From contig NC_087391.1 in NCBI RefSeq assembly GCF_963675165.1, positions 5,612,126-5,676,125 of the forward strand: DNA of 64,000 nucleotides, written 5' to 3'. Position numbers and translations under genes: made by a program. The notes below the pieces were generated by a model. The model saw only the letters and a program-made list of their open reading frames with translations. It made no database searches and had not been told where the DNA came from. This stretch comes from Halichondria panicea. Its lineage: Eukaryota; Porifera; Demospongiae; Suberitida; Halichondriidae. This document shows, in pieces, positions 45,089 to 63,647 of the stretch (positions are counted from its first letter, which is position 1; each line of letters begins with the position of its first letter).

Positions 45089-46181
45089 TTAGACGACGGG
45101 GTAGCTGGCCTGTGTAGCGATACCGCAGTTGTTGTCCCTGTTCCTGGCCATGTGGATGTATCCTTCCATTCCCCAGCTCGTGCCCCAGCTGTTCTTCACG
45201 ATCCAGTAGTCTGAACCACCATCGGTTCCGTAGCCGACAACCAGAACTCCATGGTCCAATTTGGTCGAAGAGCACTCTCGCTCATAGTAGACTCCACTGT
45301 GGTAGAGCTGGTAGCTCTGGTGGCTGGCATCAATAGCAACCGAGATCGGGCCAATGTCTGTAGAGGCCTTCATCAGAGCATCCTCGTCCTTGTGTGCAAC
45401 ATCAACGTAACTAGAGAGAGTTGCGCCAACATTGCTAGATTTGAACGTGCACCTCTCATCGTGAGCTCTGTAGGGGTAGCTCTCTTCCGTATCGATTCCG
45501 CCATTTGCCTTGATGTACCTGAAGGCATTGTCCATGAGGCCACCTTTGCAGCCGTTGTCGCCATAACTGCCCGAGCAATCGACAAGGTTTTGCTCGCTGA
45601 GGGAGACCAATGTGCCACTCTTGTGGAAGTGTTGTCCCTCCAGAGATCCGGTGGTGCTAAAGGCCCAGCAAGATCCGCACTGGCCTTGGTTCTTGATTCC
45701 TGTCACATAGCCCTTTGCCCTCCAGTCAACAGTGTCAGCCTCGGGCTTGAAGTTGGGATCAGACTTGAAGATCTTTGTGCTGTTAGAGCGGGGGCCGGAT
45801 TTGTACCCGTTCATCATTGACACAAACTCCTCGTTCTTGAGATCAGCGAATTGGTTCATACCGAGAGTGAAGCTGTGCTTGCCAGCGGCGTTGTGCTCCT
45901 CGACTATCTTCTTGTTGTCCTGCCAGATGTTGTATCTGTTGAGCTCCTCAACATCATCTTTGTAGTCTCTTTGGAAGGTCTGCAAATAAAATCAATTGAT
46001 CTAATATTTTTTGCATTGGAAAACTTTGCATGCACCACATAAATACAGCCATTGCAAAGCAGCCTCTCACATATATACAAGGTGACAATCAGGTAACAAA
46101 TGTTCTCACCTGTTTCCAGGAGTCCCACTCCACATCAGCAACTGCAAAAGCAACCAAAGCAAGAAGTATAAGTGTCTTCAT
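45089..46181 (-). CDS. Cathepsin L-like cysteine protease 1
   Basis: Two exons (minus): 46110-46181 and 45089-45979; 320 aa, typical for a pre-pro-cathepsin [16 protein letters not shown] is a signal peptide. The propeptide has the ERFNIN-type helix ([20 protein letters not shown]) and GMNQFADL (GNFD-type) motif. The mature protease has the catalytic Cys in [10 protein letters not shown], His in [11 protein letters not shown], Asn in KNSWGTSWG, and the oxyanion Gln in [28 protein letters not shown] is a cathepsin L signature. It acts in lysosomes or is secreted; in sponges such enzymes digest bacterial food. A paralogue lies directly upstream on the same strand. Confidence 0.95.
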
Positions 46182-46527: not shown

Positions 46528-47567
46528 CTATACTGTAGGGTAGCTAGCAAGGGTAGCAATGCCACAGTTATTGTTCCTGTTCCTAGCCAGCATCATGTAT
46601 CCATTCATTCCCCAGCTTGTGCCCCAGCTGTTCTTCAGTAGCCAGTAGTTCTTGCCATCCAAAGTTCCAAAGCCTACGACCAGCGGGGAATGGTTTACAT
46701 TAGTCTCAGAACATGCAGGCTCATAGTAGATTCCACTCTTGTACATGCTAAAGCTTGAATGTTGTCCATCCATGGCAGCAGACACTGGACCAATAGACTG
46801 TACAGCTTGCATCAGAGCTTGCTCATCCTTGGAAGGGACACTCTTGTAGCCAGTACAAGTAGCTCCGATATTTGAGATATTATAACGGCATTTATTGTCA
46901 TTAGCTGTGTAGGGATAGCTAGCCTCTGTATCAATGCCACCATTGTCCTTAGTGTACTGGAAACTGGATTTCATAAGGCCACCGTTGCATCCGTAATTGT
47001 TGTACTTGGAGTTGTACGTACAATCCATCAGATTTTGCTCACTGAGAGAAACAAGTTTTCCTGTTTTAATGAAGTGCTGTCCTTCTAGTGCCCCGGTTGC
47101 ACTAAAAGCCCAGCAAGACCCACACTGTAGTTGGTTTCCTACTGAAGTGACTGCACCTTTGGCTGTCCAGTTAACATTCATATCAGCCTGGAAAAAGGGA
47201 TCTGGTATAAACATTTGACTGTTGTCAAAATGCTCGATTTTTGGAGCTTTGAAGCCATGTGCTATTTCATGGCTTTCCAGGTCAGCGAATTGGTTCATGC
47301 CGAGAGTGAAGCCGAGCTCCTTCGTGTTGTGCTCCTCGACTAGCTTCTTATTGACCTGCCAGATGTTGTATCTGTTGAGCTCCTCAATATCATTGGAATA
47401 GTGCTTGCTGTAACCCTGGGAGAGTTTTAATAGTAACAATGAACAGTATGGATACACAGCCTAGTAGACTACATTCTGTTTACCAATTTCCATGCCTCCC
47501 ACTCAGGATGAAACTCCAAGGCACTTGTCAAAGCCACAACAGTAAAAATTAAAACCACAACTCTCAT
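46528..47567 (-). CDS. Cathepsin L-like cysteine protease 2
   Basis: Two exons (minus): 47484-47567 and 46528-47415; 323 aa. It begins with a signal peptide ([16 protein letters not shown]). The propeptide has [20 protein letters not shown] and GMNQFADL. The active-site Cys is in [13 protein letters not shown], Asn in KNSWGTSWG and Gln in GNQLQCGS. The His neighbourhood is [11 protein letters not shown] instead of the usual [11 protein letters not shown], so the residues flanking the catalytic His differ from paralogue 1 although the His stays. The intron position (after WK-x) is the same as in paralogue 1, so the pair arose by tandem duplication. The propeptide and N-linked sites are more diverged. 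Likely a digestive or secreted protease with altered substrate preference, by inference. Confidence 0.93.
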
Positions 47568-47839: not shown

Positions 47840-50800
47840 ATGAGCAAGCAACATTCCAAACATGGCAGGAGGAAGGGTGGTGTGTCTAGAAGTGAAGACC
47901 AAGCTCAAGCAATGTTGAAATGGGCTGTGGATGATATGAGGCTCAGTACTGACACTCTACCTAGCTTAGAGGACCTGAACACGTGAGGCCATTAAATATC
48001 ATAAGAATCAAAGCATAAACGAACGAAAGCATTAATAATAAAAATATCAGAGCATAAACGAACATTTTCCATTCAACCATTAGGTTGCTAAGAGGTAGTA
48101 CGGGTAACACCTGGGACTACATCTGTGAACATGTTCACTCGTCTACCATTGTGAATACTGCTCGTCAAAACCTACGCCTGTAAGTCCAACTGAACCCCCT
48201 CTCCCTCTTGACTTACTCAATGTATTCAACCCTCCTCTTACAGTCACTCTGGAGGTGTGTCTACTGAGCATGCCCAGTTACTAGCTGAGCAGAATGAACT
48301 ACAACGAGAGTTAGCCTCACTTCAAGTGGCAGTCTCACAGACACTACAGGATGCTAACAGACTGGAGGCCGATATCGTTGCCGTGGAGACAACCAATCAG
48401 TGTACTCGAGCAGAGATGGATGAGCTGTGTAACAAGAGCACCCTCCTCTCCGCCCACTCAGTCAGATGTGAAGAGGTGGTGCATGTTTTGATGGAGTACT
48501 GCAAGAGAATGAGGCACAGAGAGGAATTGTGCAGGTGCAATAATTATACAATTTGTGGTCTGTGAAAAAATGTATGTTGCTAAATCGTTAGTAAACTACT
48601 GATCAACAGGCTATCTTCAATTTATGGTGTTACGTATGCAATCTGCCACAGTAGATGCATGCACAGACTTATGTTTGTTCAAGTTGCCCAATGTGTACAG
48701 TTTTTGTAATTCACATACAAAGCTCTGTTGTTAATAGTGATTGTGTGTGTTCAGGTATCCAGACAAGGAGCAGTCTTACTTCACTAGAGAGCCCTCCTCA
48801 ATATCCACGACACCTGTTACCTTGGAGACTGCCTGCATGGTGAGTATGCATGGATACAGAGTGTATGCTACATTAGGTAGTTAGTAGGAGGACATTGCCT
48901 CCACTGGACTGTGTGTAATATGGAGTACAGTATTATCTGAGGACATTGCCTCCACTGGACTGTGTGTAATATGGATAATATGGAGTACAGTATTATCTGA
49001 GGACATTGCCTCCACTGGACTGTGTGTAATATGGAGTACAGTATTATCTGAGGACATTGCCTCCACTGGACTGTGTGTAATATAGAGTACAATGGCCATA
49101 TATTAGAAAGATACCTTTCAAATACTGTTAAAACTTCTTCGATTGGGACCATTATTTGTCATTTTTCGATCATGGTATTATGGCCGGAATTGGCGAATTT
49201 TTTCATCCTCCAAATATGAACATTGATGGTACCATTTGAATTCTTCACTGAAATAGGACCAACAGAACTAACCATAATATCTACACGGTTTGATTCCCAT
49301 TCTCTGTGTTGCTGTTCCCATTCTTCACATGATTTAGATTGGCTGTACTTCGAGTTGTTTGTGGGTTGCTGGGTCAGTCATGCGTCATTTGTACGTAGCC
49401 ACAAACTTGTGTTTTGTTATACGGTACATGTCTACCTTCTCTAAAACAATGTTACCCCCCCCCCCCGTAGCGTGATGTGCGGAGTGTGTGTGGAGTGGTG
49501 GAGGAGGTGGTACTATATGGAGGAGAGTCTGATGGTGGGGGGGAGAGACTGAGGGAGCAGGCTTGGAGCAGGGTAGAGGTGAGCGGCCTAAGGGCTTTAA
49601 CACTCTAGGACTCTACTGTACATGTAGTGATTGTTCTGTCCATGATCGATCTACAATAGATGTGCTTTTTGATAGTATGGTCTAATGCACAGAATATTAT
49701 TATCTACCATGTACATGTACTAGGATACACACCTTCCACAATCCTAACCCGCCCCCTCACACCCACAACACAGGCACTCCTCGCAGCCCACCCCCCTCAC
49801 GAGATCCTCGGAGCACTGACTAGACTAACTGCTGAGCTGGCAGATAAGATCCACTCCCACACTGAAAGCATTGATCTGACTAGGGACGCTCAGGAACTCA
49901 GGTGACCTCTCATTGATGAAATTCATACTCTAAACAGATTCATACATTTTGCTGGGTTTGCATATGCAAACAGATTCATAAGATGTATTTGGGAACAAAT
50001 TCACTCCCTTTTACAGAGAGTGACATGGGTATTTCCCTGAGAAAACCCCTCTGTAGAGCAAGGTGGTATTTTTTGTAGAGCACTAGTATATAAAGAGGGT
50101 GATAGATTGACTAGATTGAGTATGTTATACTGATTATCTGGGAACATGGCTGATCGAACAGAAAAAACGGGACTCCTTGATAAAAAGTCACCGTCAACGA
50201 CGTACGCAAGACAACTGTTTGCCCTTGTCGTCGTCGTGTTTGCGATAGAGTTTGGATTGGGAGTCAAGTTGTGTCTTGTCAACATGAAATACTGGCTGTT
50301 TATGGATGCCTCATGTGATCACCTCAACGCAACCGCCAACGCCACTGTAGAGCCCCCAACCGAGGATCCTGGTTATCTGGTTGCTGGTAAACACATTCGG
50401 ACTGGAAGCACTGTGCATGTACTGCTCTTCCTGTTTACGTTTCTCATCTCTGCCCTCAACATGCTCGAGTACGTTCAACTTGCCTACGGGACATACAAGT
50501 ATCTCTCTGACTCGCAAAAACCACTCCCTACAAAAGTGACGCCGGAAGATCCGAAGCCTCTACGGAAGCCGTGGTGTAGCTGGTTGGCTATCTTTGTGAT
50601 CTTTTTCTTCTTGTGCTTAGTTCCTCTCCTCAAGTTCTCTGTGGGTGTTATTATGGAGGTGCAGAAATCGGGATGCATTTGGGAGGCCTCTTCTGGCGGT
50701 AATTTGTCGAGGATTTATGTGGCCTACTGTTGTTTGGAGCTGTTGAACGCTGTCTTGCTTGCCTGCACTGTTCGAGTATTAATGGTGTGGCAAACAATCA

Positions 50801-53800
50801 AGATTAGGAGTGTTTGGTTCACCGATACGAGAAAAGCTCCTAAAAAGCATACCGAAAACGAATCGTTTAAGAAGGAAGCGGAAAAAGCCTGGCTAGCTGA
50901 GAGGCAAGACTATGAAAGAAGGGGAAAAGAAGTCAAACGAATGATGACTCCATTCAAATGGTGGTTCCTAACACCTTGGATCATGTTTTTGGTCATGACT
51001 CTCATTAACCCACACACTCTGCTAACACCTTGGACTAGGTACGAGGATTCAAAGCTCCTGAGCATGTCTCAAGTATACTACCTTCTGTTGGTTGTGTTGA
51101 AGGCATTCCAAGTGTTCACACAGAACGCTTGTGTCATGGCTATGAACAACTACCACCGAGAGTACTATCGAAAGATGACCAGACGATTTATGAAAGGGTT
51201 TACGCAGGATGTAGATTCCACTCCGAAATATCAAGAAGAAGCGAAAGAGTTTTTTTTTGTTTTCAATGAGAAGTTCAGTTTCCACCCGAACTTTCTGTGT
51301 ATTAATGCGAGGATCGAGGTGGACACTCCATACTTTGTTTTGTGTCTTATACTAGGTATCTTTGTGACCTCCTCTGATATTCTTTTTAGGTAAATAGAAA
51401 GCGGTTGTTTAGACCGCAGCTAGGGGTTTTATATGATATGTTCTTTTTAGGTAGATACAATCTTTTTAGGTAGATACAAAGTTATAATGTACGTAGTACA
51501 AAAATTATTCTGAAGCTCAACGTGAATGTACAAATGCATGACACACATGTAGTGTAATAAGCTAGTGTAATAGTGTTACAGTTACAGTTGATTTGGGACA
51601 GTACCAAAGATTATTTGCCACTCACGATGATGGATAGTAACCGTTGCTAACATTTTTTTAACCACACCCCGTGCATAACCTCTATTGTGTATAACACGTG
51701 TGGGATTCAACCACTTAGTGACTCTCCATATATGGAAATGCGGTCATAGCCACTTAAGTACGAAACGCGATCGCCATAGTCAACCATATTTATGAGCTCC
51801 TGATTATACTACTACTATGGTACATTATACATTTGTTTTGTCAAGTATTATGCCAAATTAATGACCACTACTAAGTGTTATAGTGCTGTCAAGGTGTATT
51901 GTCTCCGTTCCCTGGGGCTATCCCTGGGAAGCCCCCTCTAGCTAGCATATGCTGACACATGTGTTGCAGTTTCAGCAGCTAGTAGCTTCAGTACTTCTCT
52001 GAAATGACAACTACGCAACAGCTCTATCCAAGACCACATTAATACTGCTAGTGAAATGGCAACTGCACCACCACAACAGCCTGAGACTGAATCTACTCCA
52101 CTAACGACACCAAAAGGAATAGGTACATGGAGCTATTTTTCTGTTGGTTTTGCAGCTACTGATCATAATTCATCGAAAAAGAAAGAACCTCCTACCTCAA
52201 AGATCATCTGTCTTGGGTTAGTGTTGGTAGTGATTGTACTGCTTCTAATTGTTGGGCTGGCTCTGATGGTTGTCAAGTATACGCTCTTTGTTGATGCAGT
52301 GTGTCACCACCCCAATAGCTCCAGTGCAGGTGATCGCTTGTTCTATGTCAACGGTAATAAGATTGAGAATGGCGGCTACATGCATGTCGTGTTGATCATC
52401 TTCTCAGCCTTTATCTCATTTATCAAGATCCCGGAATATATTGCGCTTGCTTGCGGGACCCATAATTGGCTCTTACATAAACGCCGCTCTGGCATATCAG
52501 CCCCTCCCACTACCCGCTCTTGTGGCTGTGTGTGTGTCACTGCTCGCTCTTGTAGCTGTGTCACCACCCGCTGTTGTGGCTGTGTAATGACTTCAGTGGG
52601 TGTGTTCCTGTTTTTGCTTGCAGCAGGAATGGGTATGCTTTTCTTCGCTATAAAGATGGAGTTGGAGGAGGAGCGTTGCAAGTATGACAATAACTATGGA
52701 AACATGTTGAGTGTGGTGTATATAATACATTGTGGACTGGACTTCTGTTGCGCTTTGTTGGCTTGTTTTGTTAGAGTCTGGATGATAATCCATACGTACA
52801 AGGTTAAGGAGATATGGTCCCCATCAGCTAAGGTAAATTGTGTTGATCGACTTCGTAGCTATTGTCTCAAGCTATTCGGAGCTAAGGAGGAAGTGGCTAC
52901 CTATGAGCAACTCACAGATGAATCAAGCAAAAAAACTGCACAGCAACTAGCTGAAGAGGCTTATTTACACGAGTACGAGGTTGAGTATGAGAAGAGAGGG
53001 GAACAAGCGAAGGAACAGATGCTGCCCTTTGTACCTTGGTTCCTGTTTCCCTGGCTACACTTTGCTCTCCTCACTGTTATCAATCCTCATCTTCTGCTAA
53101 CACCCTGGACATATGATCACAATGGTCGCAAGTCGAAAATCATTGCAAAGAGCCGATACTTTTATTTATTGGGGGTGATAGTGTATTTTGTTCAGATCCT
53201 GGTACAGAATGCGTGTGCCATGCGAATGAACCAGTACCACAAAGACTATCACAGAGATATGGAGAAGAGAGTAGTGCACAAGTACGGACGCTATACAGAG
53301 AACCCTCAGACTACTACCATTGTACCCTCGGTTCCGGACGATAGCGTGGTTGAGAAAAAGAAGAATTACATTTTCATAGCAAGTCAGATCTCAATGAAAT
53401 TCAAGGATGAATATAACTTTGAACCAACTTTTTTCTCCTTTTTCATTAACATTATAGAGAATCCGTATTATATGATCATTCTTGTCATTGGTATTGCCGT
53501 CAGTGCATCGGACTTTTTATACAAATAAACGGTAGATCATAATTGTGTGACAATTGTAGCATTAATTTTTTAGAAAGTATTTTCTTGCTTATTTTTAACG
53601 ATACATGTATTCCTGTCATTATTGATATAATAATTATAAGTTTTGTCATCCAAAATATTTAACCACCCTTTTGAAAAAAAACCAGAGTTTTTTGTGTTGT
53701 GGTTTTTAGCTACCACTGTTGTGTGAATCTTACAATTCTCACTATTTCGATATTAGTCTCCCCACACTCTAAAGCCCCGCCCCCTAGCCCTCTCATTAGC

Positions 53801-56800
53801 TCCTCCCTCCACACTCTAATTATTGTAGCACTATAGCTACTGAAATACAATAATTTTGGGGAAAATTTAAATAATGGCCATGCACATGACTCTTATCATT
53901 AAACTTATACATGTAACCTAGAGTGATGCAATGCTAAGGAGATAATTATTCACCAATTTGTGTGTAAGAACTACCCAGTACTCGCAACTCCCGCCACCCA
54001 GTGCTCGCAACTCCCACCACCCAGTGCTCGCAACTCCCGCCACCCAGTACTCGCAACTCCCACTACCCAGTGCTCGCAACTCCCGCCACCCAGTGCTCGC
54101 AACTCCCGCCACCCAGTACTCGCAACTCCCGCCACCCAGTACTCGCAACTCCCGCCACCCAGTACTCGCAACTCCCGCCACCCAGTACTCGCAACTCCCG
54201 CCACCCAGTACTCGCAACTCCCGCTACCCAGTACTCGCAACTCCCGCCACCCAGTACTCGCAACTCCCGCCACCCAGTACTCGCAACTCCCACTACCCAG
54301 TACTCGCAACTCCCGCCACCCAGTGCTCGCAACTCCCGCCACCCAGCAACTAAGTTAACAGTGTGTACATGTACACTATATAAGGAACGGTCAACGCTCT
54401 ACGCTTAGTGTTGCAAAGATTCTGTAAAGTCTGTTATAGCAATACTTCCCTGAAAAATGTCAGATAATGAAGAAGAGTTTCTGACAGCGTCCTTGCTCCA
54501 TAATGCGTACTCATCAACAGATTCCCAGCCGGCATTATCACCTGATACGGGTACGCCTGAGGAGATAGTAGCCTCAAATGTAAGAAACTCTCCTCCGGAG
54601 GTAAGGTGTAGCTAGCTTTCTGCCTGTTTCTGTTTGTTTATACCTACTGGTCACAATCCTTTATCATAATATACTACAATGTATACAGGTGACAAAAAAA
54701 CCTACCACCTCAAATATCATCTGTCTCTGTTTTGTGGTGGGAGTGATCGAACTGCTTCTAATGTTTGGGCTGGTTCTGATGGTTACCAAGTACGTGCTCT
54801 TTGTCGATGCAGGGTGTCACCACCTCAATAGCGCTAATAGCTCCAATGGCAGCAGCACAGGTTATCACTGGTTCCATGTCAACGGTAACAAGATTGAGAC
54901 GGGCGGCTACATGCATATCTCGTTGATCCTCTTCTCAGCCTTTATCTCGTTTCTCCAGATCCCGGAATACATTTCGCTTGCTTGTGGGACCTATGAATGG
55001 CTTAAACCCCGCCCTCCAACTTCCCGCTCTTGTAACTCTGTCACTACCCGCTCTTGTTGCTATGTAGTGTCTTCTTCAGTGGGTGTGGTACTTTGTTTGG
55101 TTGGACTAGGAGGGGTTGTGCTTTACTTCGCTATAAACATGGAATTAGAGGAGGAGAGTTGTAAGGAGGACAATAGCTATAGACACACATTGGTTGTGTT
55201 GCATATGATACATAGTGTGATAGACTTCTTGAGTACTGTGTTGGCTTTTGTGGTTCGCCTCTGGATGATATACCATACGTACAAGGTTATGAAGATATGG
55301 TCCATACCTGAGGCTATCAATGAGGAGAAACGAGCAGATGAATTATCAAGCAGTAAAACTGCACAGCAACTAGCTGAAGATAATTTTTACAACGAGTACG
55401 AGGTTGAGTATGAGAAGAGAGGAAAGGAAGCGAAAGAACAAATGCTGCCCTTTGTCCCGTGGTTCCTGTTTCCCTGGCTGCACTTCTTTGTCCTCACTCT
55501 TATCAACCCTCATCTTCTGCTAACACCGTGGACACATGACCACAATGAACATAGGTCGGAAGTCATTGCTAGAAGCCAGCTATTATATTTTGGAATTGTG
55601 ATAGTGTATTTTGTTCAGATCGCGGTACAACATGCGTGTGCCATGCGAATGAACCAATACCACAAAGACTATCACGCAGATATGGAGAATAGAGTCGTGC
55701 ACAAGTACGAACGCTATACAGAGAACCCTCAGACTACTACCATTGTACCCTCAGTTCCGAACGATAACCCTCAGACTACTACCGATGTACCATTAGTTCC
55801 GAACGATAACCCTCAGATTACTACCATTGTACCCTCAGTTCCGAACGATAACCCTCAGACTACTACCATTGTACCATCAGTTCCGAACGATAACCCTCAG
55901 ACTACTACCGATGTACCATTAGTTCCGAACGATAACCCTCAGACTACTACCATTGTACCATTAGTTCCGAACGATAACCCTCAGACTACTACCATTGTAC
56001 CATTAGTTCCGAACGATAACCCTCAGACTACTACCATTGTACCATCAGTTCCAGACGATAGCGTGGTTGAGAAAGAGAAGAAGTACATTTTCATAGCAAG
56101 TCAGATCTCAATGAAATTCAAGGATGAGTACAAATTTGACCCGACCTTTCTCTCCTTTTTCCCAAACGTGAATGTAGAGAATCCGTATTATTTGTTGGTT
56201 TTTATAGTTGGTATTGCCGTCAGTACATAGAATTTTATACCAATGAACGATTATAAAATTGTGGCATTTTTAGTTTGCTTTTTAGGCAAATGAACTGTAG
56301 ATGTAATATTTATCATGACTTAGCATTTTTCAGTAGATCTCTTGTTGATAATTATATACTACGTGTCTGTGAAAGACTAGTACCTTTCTGTTGTTTGTGC
56401 GTAGTATTATTTGTTATTGTATAGGTTATGTTCAGGCAAGGATTCTTGCCTTAGCTTGATTATAGAATTTATAGTGTTAAATAGACTACATTTACTTATT
56501 TGGTATGTTGTGCAATAGTAGATGACTGTACACCCAACTGTTAATCCCTCTCTCCTGCTGTGTAAGATCCCGTCTAGAACCTGACAAACAAGAAGTGTTC
56601 AGGAGTGTATAAAAGGACAGTGTGTTAGATTTTGAGTAGAGAGAGTTGTTTTTGTGATGTTAAAGTTTATGCGATGTTGTGGAATTGATGTTGTTGAAGA
56701 TTGTTGAATGAATGAAGATTGTTGAATTGAATTGTGAGAACTAGAGATGGATCTTTTACAGTGTCATAATAATTGTGTCGTCAAAATAATTATGTAACAT

Positions 56801-59800
56801 AAAGCCCCTTGCTCTGAATATTGTTTTCTAGTGAGATTTTAGCACTGCATGTAGGACAAGGAAAGTTAATATCTTTGCTCTCACTGTTAGGTACCAGGAG
56901 CAACCTGATGGTGAGGGGAGTGTCCTCCTATCAGTAGAGGATCATCTCATGTCCGCCCGGCTAGATCATGTGACCAATGCTCTGACAGCCGAGGGTGTGG
57001 ATGAGGGGGCGGCACAAGCACAGGGTCATCTGGAGGAGGTTAAAGGTCAACTAGAGGAGTGTGTGGCGTCTGTGTACAGTGGAGAAGTTAGAGATCTTGT
57101 GAGGTAATTAAATAGTGTGTTGTGTGTGTGTAGAGATTGCATGGCTGGAGAGCATAACTAACAGTGGATTGCTTCCACACAGGTGCACTTTAATTTGGTC
57201 TGATTCTGTAGTTTATAAGACGTCAGCAATCTTGTAATTGTATAGTATATTGATCATGTCACCCCATACCCCATACCCCATACCCCACACCCCATACCCC
57301 CACACCCCACACCCCACACCCCACTCCCCACACCCCACACCCCACACCCCACTCCCCACACCCCATACCCCACACCCCACACCCCACACCCCACTCCCCA
57401 CACCCCACACCCCATACCCCACACCCCATACCCCACACCCCACACCCCACACCCCACACTCCACTCCCCACACCCCATACCCCACACCCCACACCCCACA
57501 CCCCACTCCCCACACCCCACACCCCACACCCCACTCCCCACACCCCATACCCCACACCCCACACCCCACTCCCCACACCCCACACCCCACACCCCATACC
57601 CCACACTCCACACCCCACACCCCACACCCCACTCCCCACACCCCACACCCCACACCCCACTCCCCACACCCCATACCCCACACCCCACACTCCACACCCC
57701 ACACCCCATACCCCACATTCCACACTCCACACCCCACACCCCATACCCCACACCCCACACTCCACACCCCACACCCCACACCCCACACCCCACACCCCAC
57801 ACTCCACACCCCACACCCCACACCCCACACTCCACACCCCACACCCCACTCCCCACTCCCCACACTCCACTCTTACTGTCCCTCCCCCTCCTAACGCTTG
57901 CATCATGCACAGGACGAAGGTATTGCTGGAGCTAGAGGTGGCTGGTCTTGAGGGAGGATGGGCAGTCATCTCTCAGTTAGTATCACAGCTCCAGTCCTCC
58001 CTGGTAGACAAGAGGCAAGGTCTGGACACACTGGCCAGTAAGAAGAAGAGAGTCGGGCTACTAGCTAACAATGCTGTGAGTGTATGGATGTAGCTTTTGA
58101 ATGTAACACTCTTTACCCATTGCTTTGAACGTCAATCTTGTATAATTATAATTATGATCTTTACCCAATGTGTTGTGTTGCTAGGCCGCATATAGTGTGC
58201 CTTTTTTTAATTAGTACTTGACCCCATAAAAATTAATTCATTATTGTGTACTCAGATTGCATTAGCTCACTTCCTCAGGAAATTGGTGCTCTGGGTTCTT
58301 AGATCACATCACCCTCAAGTGCTAGGTGGACTTGATATCTAAATATTTAGTTTTTTATATGAATGGCTAAATGTAAACAGGTTTTACATTCTTCTCATAG
58401 TTCTCGATGTCTATTAAAACACTTTGAGCTTTTATTTAGGCAACAATTTTGAACACCTCATCATTTGAGATTGTGTAGCTCTGTTTTTGCAGGCAATGAT
58501 CTTATGGCTAGTGTGTCAACGTTCCCAGGCTATGGCTTTGTGCATATATTCCTTACAAATCAACTTCCTTGGATCAAAGTGTTTATAATAGGCAACATGT
58601 GCTTTGATCTGCATGGCTACATTGGCTAATTGATTCTCCCCATCACTGGCTAATTCTTCCCACCATAATTAATATTAAATCATTGTACTAGACAATTGAG
58701 ATTAAAGTCTGGACACAATTTACTATTCTAGCAGCTAGTATATGATTGGACGGTGTGTTCTACTATATTTATATAGGAGAGCAACCAGGCGAGTATTCAG
58801 GGGCTGGTGAAACATAACTCTCGGCTCCACGGGCGACTCACACATCTGGCCACTGAGGTAATTGTAGAGGGAATGGGTAGCGGAGGGAAATGGGTAATGT
58901 TTACGTTTATAGGGACATTGTTGTGGCATGGCCTAGGTATGTATGGCATGAAGTGAGTCAGTAGGAGAAGTTCTTCATTGGCTTTAGACCACAGAATGCA
59001 GGAACAAAGTGCAGCCTAATAGACTATTGTACAGAAACCACCCTCAGTCCTTCTGTGTGTGCGGCTTATAGGGCATCTGCTGGTCCCAGCTGCTGTGCGG
59101 CTTGGGAAAGTATGCAATGATGTTATAGTAAATGTGTGTATGAGGAGGCAGGCTAGCTCACAGACTTTTGTCGGTGTTGTGGAATGTGCTTGCATGACCT
59201 TGCTACAATGGTGACCTCAAACCAGTGCGGTGTTGTTGTGTGCATATCAAAATTTTTGTCCAATTATTTATGATCTTGGATATGATCTGGAGCACATGCG
59301 GTTGTCTGTATAGTAGGGTTGATGATTAGATTAACCACCTGTTCCATTCTCTCTCTCACCGCACACACGTACACACACGCACACAGTTGAACCTGTACTT
59401 GCGTGACAGTGTGTGTGGTGTGGAGAGTGTGCTAGTGGGAGGGGCCAGGGATCTGATGAACAGTATTGCCACGGAAACCCGTCTCTTCTCGACCGTGTGT
59501 CTGACTAGAGCAATGAAGGCTCCAGGAATAAGGTAAATCAATCCTCCAGATCACCTAGTACATGTAACTACTCAGATCACCTTTTAAGAAAAAATGCCAG
59601 GTGAATTGTGCATGGTCAATTCTAGAGCCTCCTAATGATAATTAAGAGCATTCTGTCTCCTAGCAAAGGCAGGCATTTGAATATCAATGTAGCAGGATGT
59701 AGCCTTACAATACTGTGGTTTCAAGCAAGAAAATCCTCCAAGAGTGAGTCAGTGTTGAGAAACAATAGGTTCAGTGCTGGCAATATCCTGTGAGTGTGAG

Positions 59801-62800: not shown

Positions 62801-63647
62801 CCTGGGTTCAGGGGTCGTACAGTTTCTTATCCCCAACACTTGTCTGTTATGAATACATCACCTGTAATGATTAACCAGGTGCTATATTTCTATAATGATT
62901 AACCAGGTGCTATATTTCTATAATGATTAACCAGGTGCTATATTTCTATAATGATTAACCAGGTGCTATATTTATTCCATACTATAATGATTAACCAGGT
63001 GCTATATTTATTCCATACTATAATGGTTAACCAGGTGTTGTATATTCCATGAGAGGGTCTTAGGCTCTCAAAGTAGCCACCAAAATATGAGCCTTATTAA
63101 TTTGCATTTTGTTAAAATTGCTGGATTTCCTAGGATGCTATTATTCAGTGTGTGTAGGTGTGCTGGAGTCATGTGAGCGTTATGACGAGCAGTTACGTGG
63201 CGAGGGGTTGTGTGCAGTGAGGCAGTGCTTGTCTCATGCCTCCCACGGCCTCTCCCGATGCTCTCATGTGGAACAGACCATGAAGGAATGGTGAGTGGTT
63301 GTATACTTATATATAGTTATATAGTTACCTTCAAATACCAATTCTTGACTGCATATATAATTATGTCTATTATGTAGCTCTTGGGGAGCTTTATTAAATG
63401 GTGTCATAGCTTACAGACTTTTGATGTACCCAAAATTAATATTTTAGCGAGTCCTTTGTTGGCTCTACTGGTAATGAGGTTCACGCTTATGTGTTTGTTT
63501 ATCCATGACTCCAGGTGGGAGCAGCCTGCCCAGTATTGTGTTCCCTGGGTTACCTGTGACGGAATGTCATGTGATAAGTGGATTGACCAATGGAGGGTCC
63601 TCACAACCAAACTAAGACAACTGACATCATCGCAAACTATGTCCTAA
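47840..63647 (+). CDS. HAUS5: HAUS augmin-like complex subunit 5
   Basis: Fourteen exons: 47840-47982, 48084-48179, 48244-48534, 48755-48839, 49471-49578, 49774-49901, 56891-57103, 57913-58075, 58777-58857, 59387-59532, 62104-62255, 62618-62698, 63158-63290, 63515-63647; 650 aa against 633 in human. Augmin binds spindle microtubules and recruits gamma-tubulin for branching nucleation. Diagnostic matches to HAUS5: the start MLKWAVDDM...STGNTWDYICEHVHSSTIVNTARQNL, the RDVRSVC block, AAHPPHEILGALTRLTAE, a middle FHPHQPSGHASWKPLLPLLGL, and the end KEWWEQPAQY...KWIDQWRVLTTKLRQL. In between are coiled coils. The gene is spread over 16 kb, much larger than its neighbours, because intron 6 (49902-56890) holds three other genes and introns 7 and 10 hold satellites. 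The exon at 62104 was placed by homology and phase. Confidence 0.9.
48890..49085. repeat. ~51-bp minisatellite, 4 copies, HAUS5 intron 4
   Basis: Unit starts gaggacattgcctccactgg and continues actgtgtgtaatatgg; the second copy is slightly longer. It is directly followed by a MITE fragment. Confidence 0.9.
49103..49275. mobile_element. Foldback MITE, partial copy D
   Basis: Shares ttagaaagatacctttcaaa, catttttcg, catggtatta and tgatggtaccatttgaa with copies A-C. The outer left arm is missing and the right arm is diverged. Confidence 0.7.
50087..50094 (+). promoter_or_regulatory. TATA box of the first nested membrane-protein gene
   Basis: TATATAAA lies 52 bp upstream of the ATG at 50146. This suggests an independent promoter inside the HAUS5 intron. 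Confidence 0.55.
50146..51393 (+). CDS. Seven-membrane-segment protein 1, unrecognised family
   Basis: Single exon, 415 aa, nested in HAUS5 intron 6. Seven hydrophobic segments are visible, at about 22-45, 86-110, 144-168, 187-211, 266-286, 305-328 and 394-413. The loop after segment 1 has N-glycosylation sites (NAT twice) and a Cys (DASCDHLN). The loop after segment 3 has another Cys (SGCIWE) and NLS. The loops after segments 2, 4 and 6 are rich in Lys/Arg. By the positive-inside rule the N-terminus is cytoplasmic and the C-terminus outside. That is opposite to GPCRs and like insect-type chemoreceptors, but I see no sequence motif of that family. Shared with paralogues 2 and 3: PW-x(4)-F-x(3)-T-x-INPHxLLTPWT, and QNACxMxMNxYHxxY. 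Function unknown. Confidence 0.8.
   Translation: MADRTEKTGLLDKKSPSTTYARQLFALVVVVFAIEFGLGVKLCLVNMKYWLFMDASCDHLNATANATVEPPTEDPGYLVAGKHIRTGSTVHVLLFLFTFLISALNMLEYVQLAYGTYKYLSDSQKPLPTKVTPEDPKPLRKPWCSWLAIFVIFFFLCLVPLLKFSVGVIMEVQKSGCIWEASSGGNLSRIYVAYCCLELLNAVLLACTVRVLMVWQTIKIRSVWFTDTRKAPKKHTENESFKKEAEKAWLAERQDYERRGKEVKRMMTPFKWWFLTPWIMFLVMTLINPHTLLTPWTRYEDSKLLSMSQVYYLLLVVLKAFQVFTQNACVMAMNNYHREYYRKMTRRFMKGFTQDVDSTPKYQEEAKEFFFVFNEKFSFHPNFLCINARIEVDTPYFVLCLILGIFVTSSDILFR
51394..52055. other. Spacer between nested genes 1 and 2
   Basis: A 662-bp spacer. A short direct repeat ctttttaggtagatac occurs just after gene 1 (near 51441-51480). A short upstream reading frame (ATG at 52003) precedes gene 2. Confidence 0.5.
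52056..53528 (+). CDS. Seven-membrane-segment protein 2, unrecognised family
   Basis: Single exon, 490 aa. Paralogue of genes 1 and 3; closest to 3. The same seven hydrophobic segments, conserved loop Cys residues (DAVCHHPNSS after segment 1, EEERCKYD after segment 3) and the motif FPWLHFALLTVINPHLLLTPWT are present. So is QNACAMRMNQYHKDYHRDM. A cytoplasmic loop before segment 3 is unusually cysteine-rich, with a repeated [TR]-R-[SC]-C-x-C-V pattern (about residues 150-175), which might be palmitoylated or bind metal. It has one copy of NPQTTTIVPSVPDD in the loop before the last segment, where paralogue 3 has eight. C-terminus ASDFLYK. Function unknown; position inside HAUS5 intron 6. Confidence 0.8.
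   Translation: MATAPPQQPETESTPLTTPKGIGTWSYFSVGFAATDHNSSKKKEPPTSKIICLGLVLVVIVLLLIVGLALMVVKYTLFVDAVCHHPNSSSAGDRLFYVNGNKIENGGYMHVVLIIFSAFISFIKIPEYIALACGTHNWLLHKRRSGISAPPTTRSCGCVCVTARSCSCVTTRCCGCVMTSVGVFLFLLAAGMGMLFFAIKMELEEERCKYDNNYGNMLSVVYIIHCGLDFCCALLACFVRVWMIIHTYKVKEIWSPSAKVNCVDRLRSYCLKLFGAKEEVATYEQLTDESSKKTAQQLAEEAYLHEYEVEYEKRGEQAKEQMLPFVPWFLFPWLHFALLTVINPHLLLTPWTYDHNGRKSKIIAKSRYFYLLGVIVYFVQILVQNACAMRMNQYHKDYHRDMEKRVVHKYGRYTENPQTTTIVPSVPDDSVVEKKKNYIFIASQISMKFKDEYNFEPTFFSFFINIIENPYYMIILVIGIAVSASDFLYK
53529..54456. repeat. Spacer with 24-bp minisatellite (53970-54350, about 16 copies)
   Basis: Unit cccagtactcgcaactcccg plus ccac, with A/G variants at tactcg/tgctcg and at cccgcc/cccacc. It ends about 25 bp before the TATA box of gene 3 (TATATAAG at 54377-54384). 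Its multiple-of-three length leaves several frames open on both strands; these are not genes. Confidence 0.9.
54377..54384 (+). promoter_or_regulatory. TATA box of the third nested membrane-protein gene
   Basis: TATATAAG, 73 bp upstream of the ATG at 54457 and directly downstream of a 24-bp minisatellite. Confidence 0.5.
54457..56230 (+). CDS. Seven-membrane-segment protein 3 with expanded 14-residue repeats
   Basis: Two exons: 54457-54600 and 54689-56230; 561 aa. The first exon encodes an acidic 48-residue N-terminus not found in paralogues 1 and 2. The rest is close to paralogue 2: KPTTSNIICLCFVVGVIELL, DAGCHHLNSANSSNGSS (glycosylation sites), EEESCKED, FPWLHFFVLTLINPHLLLTPWT, and QHACAMRMNQYHKDYHADM. 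In the loop before the last hydrophobic segment, eight tandem 14-residue units of the type NPQTTTIVPSVPND (55724-56059) replace the single unit of paralogue 2. The frame closes at IAVST, six codons before the end of paralogue 2, where a TAG stands in otherwise similar sequence. The last hydrophobic segment is nearly complete, so the protein may still be functional. Family and function unknown. Confidence 0.78.
56231..56890. other. Spacer between nested gene 3 and HAUS5 exon 7
   Basis: A 660-bp AT-rich remainder of HAUS5 intron 6. A run of gttgttgaa/attgttgaatgaatg direct repeats lies near 56688-56727. No gene seen. Confidence 0.5.
57258..57880. repeat. C-rich satellite (cacaccc-type) in HAUS5 intron 7
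   Basis: About 620 bp composed of 7-9 bp units ccccacac, ccccatac and ccccactc in mixed order, with a higher-order period. The strand is almost free of G. All frames stay open on both strands over more than 200 codons, which is an effect of composition. It ends about 30 bp before the acceptor of HAUS5 exon 8. Confidence 0.95.
59865..60300. repeat. ~60-bp minisatellite, 7 copies, HAUS5 intron 10
   Basis: Unit contains tggtccaatggtggccggga and gttagtgtacctccttacta; copies differ mainly in the number of ggtgggt units. This intron (59533-62103) is 2.6 kb. Confidence 0.92.
60905..61105. repeat. ~54-bp minisatellite, 4 copies, HAUS5 intron 10
   Basis: Unit starts gcttgcatcagtgtgaacac and continues agcttgtgtgtgggtttgtg. 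It is a second array in the same intron. The remainder up to 62103 is AT-rich sequence in which I recognise nothing. Confidence 0.88.
62868..63035. repeat. 28-35-bp minisatellite, 6 copies, HAUS5 intron 12
   Basis: Unit taatgattaaccaggtgcta plus tatttcta in the first copies, extended by ttccatac in the later ones. Confidence 0.9.

Follow-up and report, generated by a model that had tools for sequence, protein, structure and literature searches.

A stretch of 64,000 nucleotides from the sponge Halichondria panicea (assembly GCF_963675165.1, contig NC_087391.1, positions 5,612,126 to 5,676,125), hereafter the window, contains three genes, g1, g2 and g3, that encode membrane proteins and are the subject of this analysis. 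All three lie on the plus strand, and their models were built from open frames and splice consensus alone. g1 (50146..51393) and g2 (52056..53528) are single-exon open reading frames (ORFs) of 415 and 490 aa, the former with seven membrane helices and the latter with a Cys-rich loop 2. g3 is a manual model of 561 aa in which two exons are joined in phase 0: exon 1 (54457..54600; 48 residues, from ATG to the junction GAG/GTAAGG), a GT..AG intron of 88 bp (54601..54688) directly before the first transmembrane segment (TM1), and exon 2 (54689..56230), which runs from TM1 to the stop. The initial annotation had recognised three related ORFs on the same strand (50146-51393, 52056-53528 and 54761-56230; 415, 490 and 489 aa) but missed the g3 exon at 54457-54600; the ATG at 54761 falls inside the first hydrophobic segment of g3.

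Searches of the sponge's own genome with g2 retrieved g3 (E 8.8e-134) and g1 (E 4.2e-48), and g2 is 38 % identical to g1 and 69 % identical to the aligned part of g3. Judged by these alignments, the kinship of the three genes is far beyond chance. Differences between g2 and g3 numbered 113, 74 and 120 at first, second and third codon positions, respectively, with a ratio of non-synonymous to synonymous substitution (dN/dS) of 0.66 (NG86) or 0.87 (YN00). This indicates coding sequence under weak constraint or partial diversification. A pseudogene cluster was rejected on the long open frames and the intact alignment, the g3 stop (TAG, 56228-56230) being early by six residues relative to the aligned g2 end, with the next in-frame stop at 56291, and the remainder being open. 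The early TAG would leave g3 without the outer end of its putative pore helix. A 42-bp (14-aa) repeat of the NPQTTTIVPSVPND type, present eight times in g3 (55724..56060, plus strand) and once in g2, lengthens loop 6 of g3. A 23-bp minisatellite of 16.3 copies lies just 5' of g3 (window 53973-54346).

Two further members were detected on contig C1 by own-genome searches with g2, g1 and the new members themselves as queries, giving five distinct genes, a count that is a lower bound. These members, C1a, of 432 aa, and C1b, whose main exon encodes 385 aa, are divergently arranged, and g1 as query retrieved a C1 member at E 2.1e-21. C1b probably begins with a separate exon (locus L027, 3744-3776) that ends in phase 0 immediately upstream of TM1. 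The g3 intron is placed in the same way, which strengthens the argument that the genes are related. From TM1 to the stop, all five genes consist of one open exon, and all proposed introns lie upstream of TM1. In C1a the first hydrophobic segment is duplicated in tandem and in frame, seen as two 77-bp cross-matches (~1348-2649 on the minus strand of L005 and L006; ~3287-3432 in L027), so that the protein has eight hydrophobic stretches. The C1a/C1b pair is present twice, ~37 kb apart (L027, C1:6652000-6660000; L028, C1:6689000-6696500), and the two copies are 99.8 % identical across 7502 aligned columns, with identical C1b proteins and C1a proteins differing by one residue. This doubling is either a recent duplication or an assembly duplicate. 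A match on contig C9 (E 0.036) was dropped, as the stretch, judged by eye, reads like a dynein heavy chain. Pattern searches of viral contigs and GTDB genome contigs returned 61 and 45 stretches, respectively, none of which was confirmed.

A seven-segment hydropathy fit placed equivalent segments in g1, g2 and g3. On hydropathy alone g2 and, more weakly, g3 would gain an eighth scoring stretch, but the family alignment and two structure models give seven membrane helices, as had been proposed. Lys and Arg residues are concentrated in the N-terminus and loops 2, 4 and 6 relative to loops 1, 3 and 5 and the C-terminus (36 v 9 in g1, 36 v 12 in g2, 28 v 6 in g3, 29 v 6 in C1b, and 29 v 11 in C1a with the earlier copy of its duplicated first segment set aside), although the inside loops are also rich in acidic residues. 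Positive-inside counts for four proteins and the adjusted C1a thus predict a cytosolic N-terminus and an N-in/C-out topology, in agreement with the initial annotation, which had also noted the basic residues of loops 2, 4 and 6. As in the 7TMIC superfamily, the fold class of insect gustatory receptors (GRs) and odorant receptors (ORs), inside loops are longer than outside loops in all five proteins (summed residues of loops 2, 4 and 6 v loops 1, 3 and 5: g1 153 v 91, g2 201 v 78, g3 267 v 83, C1b 143 v 85, C1a 159 v 83).

Conservation was partly as first described. In 5/5 proteins loop 1 holds a single Cys and loop 3 one or more (C1a two within the loop-3 range), bearing out the earlier observation, while the glycosylation sites ascribed to the family hold for loop 1, with sequons in all five, and not for loop 3, where one of the five has a sequon. 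Two sequence blocks described as shared proved to be features of the window genes. INPHxLLTPWT, at the end of TM5, occurs in all three (INPHTLLTPWT in g1, 51004..51036; INPHLLLTPWT in g2, 53079..53111, and g3, 55502..55534; plus strand) and QNACxMxMNxYH occurs exactly in two (g3 has QHAC...); neither is found in the two C1 members. Invariant positions in a six-row alignment (A3) include g1 W273, F274, P277, W278, W296, N334, H337, P395, G404 and I405. The Gr43a subfamily has a TPY motif (excerpts of PMC11100771), and a link between it and the TPW of the TM5 block was rejected as a look-alike only.

Profile searches gave no name to the family. Pfam yielded no match above cut-off for the five proteins (best YniB 0.054, KMP11 0.22, Jagunal 0.44 and TMEM_230_134 0.46), and 7tm_7 and 7tm_6 were not listed for them with E limits of 10 or 5, with HMMER filters dropping most weak matches. 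NCBIfam matches to Cgr1 (E 0.0034) and asparagine permease (E 0.0078) were each confined to one of six proteins and were not taken as kinship. PDB sequence searches found no kin (cofilin, E 0.14; FceRI-beta, E 0.57). Pfam 7tm_7, DUF3537, PHTF and 7tm_6 matched nothing in the sponge genome or in control genomes either, so this is no evidence of absence. As far as these profiles reach, the family is unnamed by sequence.

Structure comparison gave a different result. An AlphaFold2 model of g1 (predicted local distance difference test score (pLDDT) 60.0, predicted template modelling score (pTM) 0.61) had insect GRs or ORs at all of ranks 1-20 of the VIA structural list, and a second modelled target, ~20 % identical to the first, had the same 20 receptor entries at these ranks (reverse searches, 977 and 994 chains aligned). 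Nearly the full length was aligned, and the other folds listed scored clearly lower. The best matches of both models were the insect GRs BmGr9, Gr43a and Gr64a, at 5-11 % sequence identity; insect ORs and Orco (6C70, MhOr5, AgamOR28 and AaegOR10) occupied the remainder of ranks 1-20 in both lists. Orco scored slightly lower (Z 14.7 and 14.3). The family has no sequence match to these ORs or Orco, and the sponge is without olfactory neurons. Helix lengths and breaks in both models would fit TM4-TM6 that project below the membrane and a TM7 split into 7a and 7b (local pLDDT of the TM7 parts ~40-60). In g1, DSSP on the model gives a helix at residues 356-376 (51211..51273, plus strand; local pLDDT ~52-58) as candidate cytosolic TM7a, and residues 394-415 (51325..51390, plus strand; ~47-59) are the candidate pore helix TM7b. 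The chains end a few residues past TM7. The family very probably has the 7TMIC fold. Structure comparison supports the N-in/C-out topology and the likeness to insect chemoreceptors noted at first, and the statement that the proteins match no family holds for sequence profiles and fails for fold. On the models, the family is unnamed by sequence and a member of a known superfamily by fold; in view of the clear structural match, the undescribed, unrelated family first proposed gives way to a divergent 7TMIC branch.

The family shares with insect GRs seven helices, a predicted N-in/C-out topology and almost no C-terminal tail, and may share the long TM4-TM6 and split TM7. Unlike canonical GRs and animal gustatory receptor-like (GRL) proteins, none of the five sponge proteins has TYhhhhhQF in TM7 and all five genes are missing the conserved phase-0 intron just before TM7; unlike insect GRs, all five proteins keep the loop-1 and loop-3 Cys and the loop-1 sequons. 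The TYhhhhhQF motif is partly or not conserved outside insects (excerpts of PMC9998090). Non-insect animal GRLs such as Nematostella GRL1, for which the same fold and topology are presumed from the literature, were found by sequence, whereas the sponge family was matched by none of the profiles used. GrlHolozoa (GrlHz) and PHTF have the 7TMIC fold with little sequence signal (excerpts of PMC9998090). The first intracellular loop of PHTF exceeds 300 residues, against 33-50 in loop 2 of the sponge family.

The window genes are likely to represent a divergent 7TMIC branch in a demosponge, probably encoding subunits of tetrameric channels whose likeliest role is chemosensory or ligand-gated. BmGr9 is a tetramer with pore helix S7b, in which T436 and Y437 shape the pore and Q443 and F444 form its gate; S5 links the ligand pocket to S7b (excerpts of PMC11100771). 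By analogy, each sponge protein would be one subunit of a tetramer. Its N-terminus and TM7a would lie in the cytosol, TM4-TM6 would extend below the membrane as an 'anchor' linking subunits, and TM7b, at the C-terminus, would line the pore. Ligand binding in a pocket that faces outward among TM2-TM5 would shift TM5 and TM7b so that cations could pass, serving chemosensation or another ligand-gated signal. Ligand-gated channel function is moderately favoured on this analogy, in which tetramer, pore, gating, cation conduction and sensory role are all inferred. The pore register, guessed from end-points of structural alignments and not residue by residue, might place g1 F414 and C1b I380 near BmGr9 F444 and the leucine just ahead of them near Q443. 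D411 of g1, replaced by E or N in relatives, would then lie two positions upstream of this leucine. If this register is right, the plug may be kept and the glutamine lost, with an acidic residue or Asn nearby in g1, g2, C1a and C1b; g3 stops earlier. An extended proposal, that sponges have a GR-like channel lineage with its own gate, in which leucine replaces the pore glutamine with an acidic residue or Asn nearby in four of five proteins, g3 is a pore-altered heteromer partner and ligand-gated 7TMIC chemoreception diversified before neurons, is considered speculative and unlikely.

Several observations weigh against these interpretations. The models rest on a shallow alignment and are of moderate confidence, and their Foldseek E values exceed 1e-3. 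For the channel in particular, the GR gate motif is missing throughout, g3 ends six residues before g2, and excerpts of PMC9998090 leave open whether every 7TMIC conducts ions. The proteins could share the fold and yet be scaffold, secretory-pathway or signalling membrane proteins with an altered C-terminal helix that does not gate ions. This is unlikely, given that the C-terminal helix is retained in all five with P, G and I invariant, and that a hydrophobic residue lies near the BmGr9 plug position in four of five (inferred from alignment end-points). Somewhat less probable still is that the genes are sponge orthologues of GrlHz, perhaps non-sensory, and no new branch. GrlHz is reported from animals and unicellular holozoans, is without the GR motif and has non-neuronal expression (excerpts of PMC9998090), but the window family has undergone duplication and, by the g2/g3 dN/dS, evolves fast, unlike a conserved single gene, and is without a WD40 domain, although just a subset of GrlHz carries one. 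A seven-helix family of separate origin, with shallow models that look like GRs and ORs by chance or convergence, would fit the low model confidence and the missing sequence support. It is improbable, as two divergent targets gave the same receptors at the top ranks, and the predicted topology and minimal C-terminus, with the length of TM4 and TM6 and the break in TM7 as modelled, point the same way; an unrelated new fold was rejected on the same structure match. A GPCR or PAQR (adiponectin-receptor-like) protein is extremely unlikely: seven helices are common to all, and PAQR proteins are also N-in, but the charge bias predicts an N-in rather than an extracellular N-terminus, contrary to GPCRs, and the PAQR (HlyIII-related) Pfam profile was not listed for any of the five proteins.

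All three genes lie, in the same orientation, within a 6989-bp intron of HAUS5 (49902..56890, plus strand). HAUS5 profile matches in the genome number three, all within the window: two upstream of the receptor-like genes (48260-48520 and 49771-49905) and one downstream (63516-63584) that is below the family cut-off. Joined translations of exons from both sides of the intron match HAUS5 at E 3.7e-19, and the GT..AG junction preserves the reading frame. A 7-bp CACCCCA repeat of 87 copies (57260-57870) adjoins the HAUS5 exons. Possible promoter elements are the TATA-like boxes TATATAAA (50087..50094, plus strand), which begins 59 bp upstream of the g1 ATG, and TATATAAG (54377..54384, plus strand), which begins 80 bp upstream of the ATG in g3 exon 1; such boxes number 12 on both strands of the window against 4.3 expected. 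Two tandem cathepsin-L-like genes with intact catalytic Cys occupy the minus strand (45089-45859 and 46528-47298), and silicatein-like genes proper sit elsewhere (contigs C2 and C13). Ser replaces the catalytic Cys (CGASYAF or CGSSYAF) in 3 of 30 cathepsin-like loci fetched from the 131-Mb genome, and one fragment has silicatein alpha as its best PDB match (E 6.3e-12), followed by cathepsin S (2.7e-10). Silicatein is a mark of siliceous sponges, and a genome with these signatures is that of a siliceous demosponge.

GR-like genes are named in bilaterians, cnidarians and placozoans, with sponges unnamed in the excerpts of PMC7746228 and PMC11526382; the main texts of PMC9998090 and PMC7746228 contain none of the words 'sponge', 'Porifera' and 'Amphimedon', and among the matches listed by searches of openly licensed PMC papers none described a GR-like gene from a sponge. 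GrlHz is reported across Holozoa (excerpts of PMC9998090), so a sponge 7TMIC is not wholly unexpected. If the interpretation is true, channels of insect taste and smell receptor shape exist in an animal without neurons. A demosponge 7TMIC family would fill a gap in the surveyed distribution of GR-like genes and broaden the range of sequences known to adopt the fold. Through the cells that express it and the stimulus that opens it, the family would offer a direct route to how a nerveless animal senses chemicals.
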